64,000 bases of DNA, from contig JAHFPV010000014.1 of assembly GCA_023266575.1 (NCBI GenBank), forward strand, positions 55,637 to 119,636. The letters are read 5' to 3'. The notes under the pieces are model-generated. The model was not told the DNA's origin, did no database searches, and worked only from the letters and a program-made list of their open reading frames with translations. This document shows positions 2,310-48,228 of this stretch, in pieces. The stretch comes from Sphingobium sp. (lineage in GTDB: Bacteria > Pseudomonadota > Alphaproteobacteria > Sphingomonadales > Sphingomonadaceae). Each line of letters begins with the position of its first letter. The first letter of the stretch is position 1. Position numbers and translations under genes: made by a program.

Positions 2310-2678
2310 TCAATGCACCGCCCCCGTCCGAGCCTCGCACCCCCAACCGTCATATTCCACGCCGCACAATATCTCGATCTGCAAACATTTCTTCGTCAAC
2401 GCGCGGATCGACGCCTCATCTACCGCCTGTTCGCATTCCAGGAACAGGAACAGGTCGCCATCCTCATCTTCTTCGCGGTCGAGTTCGACCATGCCGAACT
2501 GGCTGGCGATTTCCAGGACGCGGTCGAAATCCTTGTCATTGCCCTTGAAGCTGACGTCCACCGCGCGCGGGATCATGGCCTTGTCGCCATTGGCGGCGAG
2601 GTTGGCGAGGACTTCGCGGTCCGCTTCCCATTCGGCGGCCAGGCGCGCTTCATCGACGGGGGGCAGTTTGATACTCAT
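2310..2678 (-). CDS. rraB: RraB-type ribonuclease E inhibitor domain protein
   Basis: This 122-aa acidic protein resembles the RraB family (regulator of ribonuclease activity B), small proteins that in enterobacteria bind RNase E and change which mRNAs the degradosome cuts. Supporting features are the length, the early WEADREVLANLAANGD segment, the central acidic stretch (DREEDEDGD) followed by a beta strand, and the closing LCGVEYDGWGCE. The start ATG overlaps the carA stop as ATGA, so rraB is translationally coupled to carA, with the small membrane protein and carB downstream. The call is by overall resemblance. Its effect on RNase E in this lineage is inference. Confidence 0.75.
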   Translation of the reverse strand: MSIKLPPVDEARLAAEWEADREVLANLAANGDKAMIPRAVDVSFKGNDKDFDRVLEIASQFGMVELDREEDEDGDLFLFLECEQAVDEASIRALTKKCLQIEILCGVEYDGWGCEARTGAVH

Positions 2679-3937
2679 GCCGCCACCGCTTTTTTAAGGC
2701 CATCGACGAAGCGCTGGAACAGGTAGAAACTGTCCTGCGGGCCGGGCGAGGCTTCGGGGTGATACTGGACCGAGAAGGCGTTTTTGTCGGTCAGCGCAAT
2801 GCCGCAATTGCTGCCGTCGAACAGCGAGACATGGGTCGCGCGCACATTGGCGGGGAGCGTGGCGGCATCAACCGCAAAGCCGTGGTTCATGCTGGTGATT
2901 TCGACCAGCCCGTCCTCCAGCCGCTTGACCGGATGGTTCGCGCCGCGATGGCCCTGATGCATCTTGATGGTTTTTGCGCCCACAGCCAGACCGAGCAACT
3001 GGTGGCCGAGGCAGATGCCGAACACAGGAATGTCCGCGTCCAGCACCTGCCGGATCACCGGCACGGCGTAAGCGCCGGTCGCGGCGGGATCGCCCGGACC
3101 GTTGGAAAGGAACACGCCGTCGGGGCCAAGCGCCGACACCTGATCAAAGGTCGCAGTGGCGGGCAGCACGGTGACGCGCGCGCCGGCCTTTACCAGGTTG
3201 CGGAAGATATTGTTCTTCGCGCCATAATCGATCGCGACGACATGGGGGCGGCTATCATCCCCCTCCCGCTTGCGGGAGGGGTTAGGGGAGGGCATGTCCG
3301 GGGTGTCGGCTGTAACAGCCCCTCCCCCGACCCCTCCCGCAAGCGGGAGGGGAGAAGAATAGCCCACGCCCAGCGTCCATGGTCCGCCTTCCCACAACCG
3401 ACTGTCCTTGCCCGTGACTTCGATGGCGAGGTCCATGCCCTCCAAGCCCGGCCAGGCGGCAGCCTTGGCGGCCAGCGCGGCTATGTCGAACTTGCCGTCG
3501 GGATTATGGGCGATGACGATGTTGGGCGCGCCCTTTTCGCGGATCATGCGGGTCAGCGCGCGGGTATCGACGCCTGACAGGCCGATGCGGCCATGGTCGC
3601 GCATCCACTCGTCGAATGGCTGGACGTTGCGGAAATTGCTCGGCTCCGTCACGTCCTGGCGCACCACGCAGCCCAGCGCGAAGGGCGTGTCCGCCTCGAC
3701 ATCGTCGGCATTGGTGCCGACATTGCCGATATGGGGGAAGGTGAAGGTCACGACCTGGCCTGCATAGCTGGGGTCGGTCATGATTTCCTGATAGCCGGTG
3801 ATCGCGGTGTTGAAACAGAGTTCGCCCACCGCTTCGCCCACAGCGCCAAAACCACGGCCGAATACGGCGGAACCATCGGCAAAAACCAATACCCCTGTCG
3901 CTCCTTTAGGCACAATGAGGGTCTTGGCGTCAGCCAT
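2675..3937 (-). CDS. carA: Carbamoyl-phosphate synthase small (glutaminase) subunit with an in-frame repeat insertion
   Basis: CarA hydrolyses glutamine and passes ammonia to CarB. The N-terminal CPSase domain (GFGAVGEAVGELCFNTAITG) is followed by a class I glutamine amidotransferase domain with the nucleophile in FGICLGHQ and the catalytic HPEAS near the end. The ATG at 3937 is chosen over an upstream in-frame start at 4000 because it has an AAAGGA ribosome site about 9 nt away and begins MADAKTLIVPKG. At 420 aa it is longer than the usual 380-390. The excess is about 32 residues (around 196-227: SPLPLAGGVGG ... PSPNPSRKREG) encoded by a GC-rich palindromic element placed in the linker between the two domains. 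Confidence 0.97.
   Translation of the reverse strand: MADAKTLIVPKGATGVLVFADGSAVFGRGFGAVGEAVGELCFNTAITGYQEIMTDPSYAGQVVTFTFPHIGNVGTNADDVEADTPFALGCVVRQDVTEPSNFRNVQPFDEWMRDHGRIGLSGVDTRALTRMIREKGAPNIVIAHNPDGKFDIAALAAKAAAWPGLEGMDLAIEVTGKDSRLWEGGPWTLGVGYSSPLPLAGGVGGGAVTADTPDMPSPNPSRKREGDDSRPHVVAIDYGAKNNIFRNLVKAGARVTVLPATATFDQVSALGPDGVFLSNGPGDPAATGAYAVPVIRQVLDADIPVFGICLGHQLLGLAVGAKTIKMHQGHRGANHPVKRLEDGLVEITSMNHGFAVDAATLPANVRATHVSLFDGSNCGIALTDKNAFSVQYHPEASPGPQDSFYLFQRFVDGLKKAVAA
3259..3352. repeat. GC-rich palindromic repeat inserted in frame in carA
   Basis: Two inverted arms of the form CCCCTCCCGCTTGCGGGAGG, each itself a hairpin, flank a short unique centre (about 3290-3325). On the minus strand the element reads through in the carA frame without a stop and encodes a glycine/proline/serine-rich peptide. 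A half copy lies at 4570-4590 just after yqeY, and a diverged paired copy at 48111-48228. The element is therefore dispersed rather than part of CarA. It behaves like the coding palindromic elements described in Rickettsia, although I know of no named family for it. Confidence 0.85.
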
Positions 3938-4094
3938 GGTCGGGTGGTCCTTTTTTGCTTTTGCGGGGTCCCGTCTGGTGCGGGTTAAACGGCCGGTCAC
4001 CTATGCCTGTGCGGCGTCGCGGTCAACGCCTGTTAAAAATCTCTTTTGGCGTTATATCTACTTCTTTCCCGATAAAAACAGGATTCGCTTCGCC

Positions 4095-4569: not shown

Positions 4570-4590
4570 CCCACCCGCTTGCGGGAGGGG
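4570..4590. repeat. Half copy of the carA-type GC-rich palindrome
   Basis: CCCGCTTGCGGGAGGGG directly repeats one arm of the element inside carA. It forms a short strong hairpin about 25 bp after the yqeY stop and could help end transcription, though there is no T-run. Confidence 0.6.
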
Positions 4591-4604: not shown

Positions 4605-4634
4605 TCCGTTCGTTTCGAGCGAAGTCGAGAAACG
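4605..4634. repeat. Single unit of the GTTTCTCGACTTCGCTCG repeat family
   Basis: One copy of the unit CGTTTCGAGCGAAGTCGAGA with its flanking CCGTT and AACG, without an inverted partner. The same unit occurs as inverted pairs at 4982-5055, 27862-27941 and 59660-59732 and as another single at 63848-63876. Confidence 0.85.
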
Positions 4635-4681: not shown

Positions 4682-5089
4682 ATGGCTTTCTGGACCTACA
4701 TGCTCAAATGCTCTGACGGTCGATATTATACCGGCCATACCGACAATCTCGATCAGCGCATCGGCCAGCATCAATGCGGTGAAGGCAGCGCCTTCACGCG
4801 AAAACGTCGTCCGGTGGTGCTGGTCTGGAGCGAAACTTTCGGCACGCGGATCGAGGCATTGGAAGCGGAGCAGATCATCGGCGGCTGGTCGCGTGCCAAG
4901 AAAGAGGCGCTGATCGCCGGGAACTGGTCATTGGTGTCGCACTTCGCCAGACCACCGCGTGAGCGAAATCCGGCCCATACCCCGTTCGTTTCGAGCGAAG
5001 TCGAGAAACCGCAAATGCCGCGTGCGGGTTTCTCGACTTCGCTCGAAACGAACGGCGGTGGTGAAGTGCCGCCGGAGGGGAGATTTTGA
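4682..5089 (+). CDS. GIY-YIG endonuclease superfamily protein with a repeat-derived C-terminus
   Basis: The first about 95 residues form a compact GIY-YIG nuclease domain of the UPF0213/YhbQ type. It shows FWTYMLKCSDGRYYTGHT with the YIG-position YTG, then the conserved arginine (DNLDQRIGQH), FTRKRRPV, and the metal-binding glutamate region EALEAEQIIGGWSRAKKEALI. Such proteins cut or repair DNA, but the cellular role of stand-alone YhbQ-like members is unclear. The last 40 residues (including TPFVSSEVEK and FSTSLETNG) are translated from an inverted repeat pair at 4982-5055 and are not family sequence. The stop overlaps the dnaG TTG start (TTGA), so dnaG is coupled to it. Confidence 0.88.
   Translation: MAFWTYMLKCSDGRYYTGHTDNLDQRIGQHQCGEGSAFTRKRRPVVLVWSETFGTRIEALEAEQIIGGWSRAKKEALIAGNWSLVSHFARPPRERNPAHTPFVSSEVEKPQMPRAGFSTSLETNGGGEVPPEGRF
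4982..5055. repeat. Inverted pair (REPIN-like) inside the end of the GIY-YIG gene
   Basis: Two 29-bp arms in opposite orientation (CCGTTCGTTTCGAGCGAAGT ... ACTTCGCTCGAAACGAACGG) flank a 16-bp centre. The pair is read through as coding sequence and lies only about 30 bp before the dnaG start, so a hairpin in the mRNA could influence dnaG translation. Confidence 0.9.
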
Positions 5090-35072: not shown

Positions 35073-35743
35073 GCAGCCCCCTTTATGTCGCGATCGACAC
35101 GCCGGACCTTGGCAAGGCGCAAAATCTGGCGCAGCAGGTGCGTCATCATGTCGGCGGGCTGAAACTGGGGCTCGAATTTTTCTGCGCTAATGGCCATCAT
35201 GGCGTGCATGAGATGATGAAGTTCGGCCTGCCGATCTTCCTCGATCTGAAACTGCACGATATTCCCAATACGGTGGCCAAGGCGGTGCAGGCATTGCACC
35301 TGCTGGAACCGGCGATCCTGACCGTCCATGCCGCGGGCGGGCGGGCTATGCTCGAGGATGCCAAGGCCGCGGCAGGCATCAAGACCAAGGTGGTGGCCGT
35401 GACGGTACTGACCAGTCTGGACGATGCCGACCTGCTCGAGATTGGCGTGGGCGGCAAGGCAGAGGATCAGGTGCGGCGGCTGGCCGATCTGGCGCAAAAT
35501 GCCGGGCTGGACGGGATCGTCTGTTCGGGCGAGGAAGTCGCGATGGTCAAGAAACATTGGTCCGACGGCTTCTTCGTCGTGCCGGGCGTGCGACCCGCAG
35601 GGGGCGCGATGGGCGACCAGAAGCGCGCGGTGACGCCGCGACAGGCGCTGGATCGCGGCGCGTCCATCCTGGTCGTCGGACGGCCGATCAGCCTGGCGGA
35701 AAATCCCGATCTTGCCGCGCGTGAGATTGAGGCGACGCTATAA
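35069..35743 (+). CDS. pyrF: Orotidine-5'-phosphate decarboxylase
   Basis: PyrF makes UMP from OMP, the last step of pyrimidine synthesis. The 224-aa TIM barrel shows YVAIDTPDLGKAQNLA, the KLG substrate lysine (VGGLKLGLEFF), the catalytic triad segment FLDLKLHDIPNTV and the phosphate-binding VVPGVRPAGGAMGDQKRAV. It is coupled to the LapA-like gene upstream and ends at a two-way terminator. Confidence 0.97.
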   Translation: MSSPLYVAIDTPDLGKAQNLAQQVRHHVGGLKLGLEFFCANGHHGVHEMMKFGLPIFLDLKLHDIPNTVAKAVQALHLLEPAILTVHAAGGRAMLEDAKAAAGIKTKVVAVTVLTSLDDADLLEIGVGGKAEDQVRRLADLAQNAGLDGIVCSGEEVAMVKKHWSDGFFVVPGVRPAGGAMGDQKRAVTPRQALDRGASILVVGRPISLAENPDLAAREIEATL

Positions 35744-48110: not shown

Positions 48111-48228
48111 CTCCTCCCCCTTTGAGGGGGAGGCTGGGTGGGGGTGTACTGCGGCCAGCGCGGACGCTCGGCTTCGCCTCGCTCCCCCTCCCCCGACCCC
48201 TCCCCGCTGGGGAGGGGAGATGCAGACT
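48111..48228. repeat. Diverged GC-rich palindromic element (carA-insert type)
   Basis: Inverted C-run/G-run arms (CTCCCCCTTTGAGGGGGAG on the left; CCCCTCCCCGCTGGGGAGG on the right) flank a unique centre of about 50 bp. The layout matches the element inserted in carA, but the arms differ. It fills much of the 251-bp gap between two convergent genes. Confidence 0.7.

Follow-up and report, generated by a model that had tools for sequence, protein, structure and literature searches.

The carA gene of the Sphingobium genome examined here very probably carries a tolerated REP/REPIN-like pair of palindromes (hereafter repeat A) in the linker between the two domains of its product, at a joint that has been refilled repeatedly by several repeat types across the Sphingomonadaceae. 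The window, that is, the whole stretch of DNA analysed, comprises 64,000 nucleotides of one contig (C23:55637-119636) of G000, a draft genome of 3.62 Mb in 26 contigs; G labels denote genomes and L labels loci throughout. In this window carA, which encodes the carbamoyl-phosphate synthase small chain (TIGR01368, PF00988 + PF00117), occupies positions 2675..3937 on the minus strand. We chose the ATG at 3937 as its likely start, the ORF (2675-4000) staying open to a GTG at 4000. The ORF scores TIGR01368 at E 3e-123 in a profile search, Pfam places the CPSase_sm_chain domain at residues 38-163 and the GATase domain at residues 256-432 with the repeat insert between both, and the closest solved structures to the window CarA are those of E. 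coli CarA, in which the insert position corresponds to approximately residues 180-184.

The insert (3259..3353) is read in frame as SPLPLAGGVGGG..PSPNPSRKREG and consists of an inverted pair of 22-bp palindromes, CCCCTCCCGCTTGCGGGAGGGG in arm 1 (3260..3281, plus strand) and CCCCTCCCGCAAGCGGGAGGGG in arm 2 (3331..3352, plus strand). Its minus strand, which is the sense of the carA mRNA, folds as RNA at -86.6 kcal/mol (z -10.1), and 0/200 shuffles were equally stable. The arms, the folding and the domain borders bear out an earlier sequence-only reading of this DNA, which had described a hairpin-forming element in frame in the interdomain linker of CarA. The same reading overestimated the gain at about 32 residues: CarA comprises 441 aa in G000 and 413 aa in its nearest insert-free relative, as judged from the ORFs, which gives a net gain of 28 residues. 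The insert takes the place of part of the short linker, which we counted against a clean insertion. The stretches GVGYSSPLPLAGG and KREGDDSRPHVVA belong to the predicted CarA with the insert, and a comparison of the insert peptide with plasmid records gave no matches.

Repeat types and their distribution

Repeat A has the architecture of a short GC-rich palindrome with 22-bp arms that occurs in dozens of copies, often as inverted pairs. With as many as 3 mismatches allowed, its core motif is present four times in the window, where 0.26 occurrences would be expected, although the match at 35326 (3 mismatches) may be due to chance. The half copy that had been described after yqeY is confirmed at 4570..4590 (plus strand), between yqeY and a small GIY-YIG nuclease gene. 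The related pair that had been proposed at 48111..48228 is a real GC-rich inverted pair, but sequence comparison reveals only a distant relation to repeat A, since the similarity concerns one arm, at 86% over 36 bases (C23:103821-103856, that is, window positions 48185-48220). In G000 as a whole, a 103-base query gave 74 BLAST matches at 37 candidate places, one palindromic place often scoring on both strands. We assessed 17 of these places, with 1.5 kb flanks, by a gene-spanning rule based on ORFs and codon composition: 15 are intergenic or at gene edges, and two span genes in frame, namely carA and hrpB. Among the 28 best copies from other genomes of the genus (the carA copy of G009 excluded) the rule flagged four as ORF-spanning. 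Two of these lie in recognised genes, for isoleucyl-tRNA synthetase (G043) and the 2-oxoacid dehydrogenase E2 (G028), and the other two flagged ORFs, of 148 and 147 aa (L065, L088), were judged to be spurious. Overall, 4/45 copies examined, carA counted, are in frame inside recognised genes, and the hosts (carA, hrpB, ileS and E2) are conserved genes. The isoleucyl-tRNA synthetase of G043 (L067) has two in-frame repeats, A and, by eye, an E-like one, and in the E2 of G028 (L076) repeat A lies between the lipoyl and E3-binding domains (Pfam). Repeat A is also found, as if fixed, at the start of one gene that is phytoene/squalene synthase-like by eye (L002, L062-L064, L073, L081).

Inserts in carA fall into seven types, the labels being our own and assigned by text patterns in the peptide: A (PLPLAGG..PSRKREG or PSRLREG..PPASGRG; eight inserts), A2 (..PSPEGEG; two), B (PFVSSEVEK..STSLDTNG; 11), C (PFVPSEVEG..STALGTNG; four), D (ELVEG..STGSARTG; three), E (QRKLGSQ..; two) and F (..LSPEGEG; one). 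By eye, A and A2 are akin in DNA, as are B and C, so that the seven types represent four or five sequence groups; B and C halves are mixed in the linker of G145, and type A occurs in two of its frames within CarA. Most insert-bearing linkers (27/31) fold at z <= -3 relative to base shuffles, and the remaining four have weak hairpin scores (L039 -1.0, L273 -1.9, L222 -2.3, L042 -2.4). Each of the 31 recurs elsewhere in the fetched DNA, in between one locus (type E, L262) and 131 loci, the two E inserts recurring in just 1 and 2. In a separate comparison of the named loci, L192 had no copy. Half-sites of repeat B number 75+67 in G000, against 1+0 for the reversed pattern, and three hosts contain 48, 72 and 22 half-sites of repeat D, compared with 0. 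Under the ORF and codon rule, none of the 21 repeat-B sites examined in G000 spans an ORF and two reach the 5' edge of one, yet a B pair makes up the tail of the GIY-YIG gene product. Several G000 contigs (e.g. C2:89, C5:91, C9:94, C14:95) end about 100 bases past a B half-site that is truncated and has the same outer sequence each time, as would be expected if an insertion sequence lay inside repeat B and broke the assembly there.

The carA linker could be read in 93 of 94 genomes of the genus (G034 being without a carA match) and in 143 of 144 other genomes of the family among the matches listed (150 of 286 carA in 298 genomes, six of the 150 belonging to genus members). Of these 144 family loci, 29 were picked first, mostly for their long ORFs, and the remaining 115 were then fetched too, which makes the listed set complete; unparsed loci (L404/G175, L044 and three named loci) were left out. 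Repeat-derived inserts occur in 12/93 carA of the genus and in 19/143 of the rest of the family, that is, in 31/236 carA read, and are absent from the other 205. Linker lengths are bimodal: 111/162 distinct linkers measure 8-9 aa and have no repeat, and 39/42 long linkers, including those of type X described below, measure 29-51 aa. The sequence-only reading had named the linkers of relatives and the rest of the genome as the places to look, and it is supported because most of these linkers are short and free of the repeat and because repeat A is dispersed, with a further in-frame copy in HrpB.

Closely related genomes differ in the state of the linker. Five species whose carA DNA is 93-96% identical outside the linker display three states (repeat A, repeat B and none). 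G000 and G009 share one A insert, with no difference over 103 bases and 94.5% identity in the rest of carA; their sister G124, whose carA DNA is 93-94% identical to that of G000 and G009, is without insert; and G020 and G037 both carry repeat B. Since the latter two share their insert though their flanks differ, recombination between species may spread inserts, in which case fewer insertions would have taken place. In a FastTree phylogeny of the 236 CarA sequences without the linker, at least 25 changes are needed for repeat presence and 33 when all states are counted; the 25 changes are not a count of insertions, as gain and loss are not separable and recombination can move inserts. Apart from the window's own, three genus groups each contain two or more types (g104 with A, B and C; g77 with A, C and F; g114 with B and E). 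Of 80 named loci, which overlap the other sets in species, 77 were parsed, and nine have long linkers: seven repeats, one type X (L141) and one that is neither (L150). The seven repeats are from S. indicum BiD32, a Sphingobium MAG, Sphingopyxis indica, a Sphingopyxis MAG, Pontixanthobacter rizhaonensis, an Altererythrobacter MAG and Sphingomonas arenae.

Type X is a conserved linker of 38 residues that reads DVDAT..VAAGYPA..LPTPAP in most of its ten genus members (G001, G005, G013, G033, G083, G085, G094, G104, G112, G116). It forms no hairpin and does not recur in the fetched loci, and long linkers therefore also arise by other routes; the longer linker of G127 is, by eye, not a repeat. A derivation of type X from a decayed repeat B was not supported by 25 pairwise comparisons, in which G005 against G020 and G037 alone stands out at the protein level (1 and 6/200 shuffles reach the score), together with a few G005 and G112 pairs at the DNA level (4 to 13/200). 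In a survey of the class, carA was matched in 111/142 genomes, of which 109 do not belong to the family. The best 30 of the class carA loci were read and contained no repeat-like or long linkers (L465 and L485 by eye), the other class genomes being judged by match coordinates alone. Split carA matches in G463 and G534 imply long linkers; among five outliers fetched, G434 and G534 have long linkers that are not hairpin-forming (z 1.4 and -1.7), and the linkers of G476 and G521, compared as protein only, look unlike the repeats.

A probably tolerant joint and rival explanations

In the 236 CarA sequences, insertions of more than 10 aa occur in the linker only; elsewhere the largest comprises 10 aa (one case, near the N terminus), followed by others of 6-9 aa, in a scan that began 172 residues ahead of the linker motif and so leaves out the far N terminus. 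The AlphaFold2 model of the window CarA has a mean pLDDT of 84.9, with values below 50 at residues 199-219 and 221-223 and above 80 over most of both domains, and matches E. coli CarA at TM 0.85 / 0.94. The model thus predicts a disordered insert between two intact domains. The copy of repeat A in HrpB (C22:62807-62907 of G000; L003) is likewise in frame, in a protein in which Pfam finds HrpB_C and DEAD domains. At the HrpB joint, G000, G009 and G020 have A inserts, and G025, G002, G015, G019, G001 and G027 have a different repeat-like peptide, PLP..G.GVG..PSLEGRG, in whole or in part; the hairpin scores at the joint in two of these six genomes are -6.2 (G015) and -4.3 (G027). This survey matched 46/61 genomes, from which 30 loci were fetched, seven of them unparsed and one (L433) with its joint not shown. 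Judged from these sequences, HrpB has a repeat-prone joint comparable to that of CarA.

Read most simply, the linker is a 'landing pad' that owes its role to the tolerance of the protein: repeats land widely, and in-frame, stop-free copies in tolerant joints survive. The element in carA would be an inverted palindrome pair of a dispersed, apparently non-autonomous REP/REPIN-like family, a copy of which would have entered the linker in a recent ancestor of the G000 species and G009, or have passed from one to the other. It would have been retained because the frame stays open and because the joint between the CPSase small-chain and glutaminase domains accepts extra disordered residues, and the seven repeat types, in four or five sequence groups, would have entered this joint repeatedly across the Sphingomonadaceae. 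Direct support comes from the dispersal of the repeats, their presence and absence, the several types, the one permissive site, the in-frame reading and the low model confidence of the insert. We infer from these that the repeats move as mobile elements, that their effect is near neutral and that insertion precedes selection. The earlier suggestion that such a process makes new linker peptides holds in the plain sense that repeat DNA appears to have lengthened linkers repeatedly; a benefit to the cell or an altered enzyme goes beyond that sense.

Tolerance has to be weighed against selection for the inserts themselves. If they were functional, the hairpin or the peptide would be selected, for slower translation between the domains, for coupling of glutaminase and synthetase or as a regulatory site. 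The refilling of the same joint by different and mostly strongly hairpin-forming repeats, and the length range of most long linkers, type X included, are what such selection might produce. However, the large majority of carA are without a repeat insert, the insert sequences, types and frames vary, the type X linker has no hairpin and the lengths are explicable by element size alone, and we regard a function as highly improbable. That the insert is an artefact of assembly or annotation and is not in the protein is scarcely credible: repeats can mislead assemblers, but the identical insert is present in the G009 genome, no stop interrupts the frame, and the same ORF continues beyond the insert into the C-terminal domain.

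The joint might also be a hotspot by virtue of its DNA rather than of protein tolerance, through a target-sequence preference or through local jumps from the repeat-rich yqeY/GIY-YIG region, which lies about 0.7 kb from the carA start. This is unlikely, though a real possibility. In the named loci, carA inserts occur in 3/8 with a GIY-YIG gene against 5/67 without (p 0.035; L150, one of those five, is not a repeat), and in other loci the corresponding figures are 6/14 against 3/32 where at least 1.3 kb upstream is available (p 0.015) and 6/15 against 4/35 at 0.9 kb upstream (p 0.048). At a flank of 600 bases, which often misses the gene, they are 8/29 against 19/93 (p 0.45). These p values ignore kinship, and the locus sets overlap; moreover, inserts are also found in loci without a GIY-YIG gene (L147, L163, L192), and HrpB, on a different contig, has been hit too. 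A RAYT-mobilised REPIN, as in Pseudomonas, would match the inverted palindrome pair, the dozens of copies and the 22-bp arms, but is improbable as an account of the element, given that a Y1_Tnp (PF01797) search gave no match in the G000 draft while being positive in 5/14 control genomes. Y1_Tnp is found in just 23/94 genus genomes and is unrelated to carA inserts (3/12 against 20/81; p 1.0). With RAYT absent from the G000 search and no association in the genus, we dropped it as the mover of the repeats.

Relation to known repeat systems

The unit of a REPIN is two inverted palindromes, present in many copies, and in REPIN/RAYT systems REPs flank the enzyme gene. The repeats described here are alike in their inverted palindrome pairs, their many copies and an enzyme gene flanked by repeats, and differ in that no RAYT was found in G000 and that the repeat-flanked gene encodes a GIY-YIG nuclease. 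In-frame selfish repeats are usually told as scattered cases, those of Rickettsia being the best known, whereas one CarA joint records many arrivals. According to the portions of PMC2229807 and PMC10969869 that were covered, Rickettsia palindromic elements are dispersed palindromic DNA of 105-146 bp, of several families, which lie in frame in conserved proteins and are tolerated, and one example that was tested is an active guanylate kinase. The comparison with Rickettsia made in the sequence-only reading is apt as an analogy: by description, palindromic DNA has been inserted in frame in conserved genes in both cases, but here, in the Sphingomonadaceae, one enzyme joint appears to have been refilled by seven types across a bacterial family. 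Correia, ERIC and YPAL MITEs, as described in the covered part of PMC2229807, are small non-autonomous elements with open frames that are fused in frame to ORFs, and in size, apparent non-autonomy and open frames they resemble the present repeats.

The nearest precedent is provided by the intragenic GTAG/CGTC REPs, which, in the covered portions of Di Nocera et al. 2013 (PMC3733652), are dimers that encode 20-30 aa in genes of several bacteria, including sphingomonads and erythrobacters. The authors suggested that such insertions are neutral and fall in flexible linkers or loops, and in one case, recB of two Xanthomonas, different REPs occupy about the same site. REP dimers are read within genes both there and in carA; in contrast, repeats A-D are by eye without the GTAG/CGTC end tag, which was seen in no A or B copies, although repeat E does show CGTC. 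The main text of that paper does not name CarA (0 occurrences of 'carbamoyl'), its supplement of intragenic REPs may include it, and the covered portions contain no phylogenetic count of repeated insertion. Among titles and abstract openings, our literature search returned none reporting a repeat in CarA, with the same proviso as to that supplement, and the covered part of PMC12306157 mentions neither Sphingo nor intragenic. Set against these portions of the literature, in-frame palindromes in proteins and linkers as tolerant sites are known, and what is new in the present variant is that several repeat types have refilled a single site again and again. Many arrivals in one joint make insertion, tolerance, frame choice and decay traceable with species-level replicates, and CarA and HrpB represent natural experiments on the amount of unstructured peptide that a conserved enzyme will accept.

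A GIY-YIG gene bracketed by repeats

The small GIY-YIG nuclease gene (4682..5089, plus strand; PF01541 at residues 3-74, E 2e-17) lies between yqeY and dnaG (Pfam), 0.7 kb from carA. A repeat-B half copy (4606..4633, plus strand) is found just upstream of it, and a repeat-B inverted pair in its 3' end (4982..5055, plus strand), read as PFVSSEVEK..FSTSLETNG, supplies the C-terminal tail. We tentatively propose that the nuclease mobilises or maintains RAYT-less alphaproteobacterial palindromes, which would make its repeat-bracketed gene the GIY-YIG equivalent of the REP-RAYT 'REPtron'. The gene may thus be a candidate for a repeat-associated mobility enzyme, and we keep it apart from the main explanation. 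If the proposal is true, the enzyme would account for the spread of the repeats as well as for the frequent hits in the adjoining carA. For repeats that lack a RAYT, it is a candidate enzyme that can be tested; among titles and abstract openings, our literature search returned none joining GIY-YIG genes to REPs.

The loci searched contained 44 GIY-YIG ORF matches, 21 of them with the 3' end inside the locus. The tail at the end of all 21 orthologues is encoded by a repeat, as recognised by pattern in 18 and by eye in L176, L057 and L056; two of the genes are degenerate. In 18/21 the 5' and 3' flanks share a repeat word of 16-36 bases (the misses being L170 with 11, L057 with 10 and L056 with 9), whereas of 840 random intervals from the same loci 10.8% share at least 12 bases and 4.4% at least 14. 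Because these orthologues represent one locus in related species and are non-independent, we compared relatives from plasmid records, 12 of which were read out of 39 records matched. Plasmid copies bracketed by repeats of their own host account for 3/4 of the alphaproteobacterial ones (Sphingomonas parapaucimobilis and two Methylobacterium) and 0/8 of the others. The shared flank words of these non-orthologous copies measure 16 bases in S. parapaucimobilis, 17 in M. bullatum and 28 in M. aquaticum, where the gene is frameshifted, against 8 in S. paeninsulae, where the gene contains a stop, and 8-11 in the eight non-alphaproteobacterial copies. The three flanked neighbourhoods are repeat-rich, with 11, 5 and 14 of 33 control intervals reaching 12 bases, but the largest control word, of 15 bases, is below the value for the gene each time. 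The repeat beside the S. parapaucimobilis gene occurs at 172 places on nine replicons of the strain, and that beside the M. bullatum gene at no fewer than 40 places in its record.
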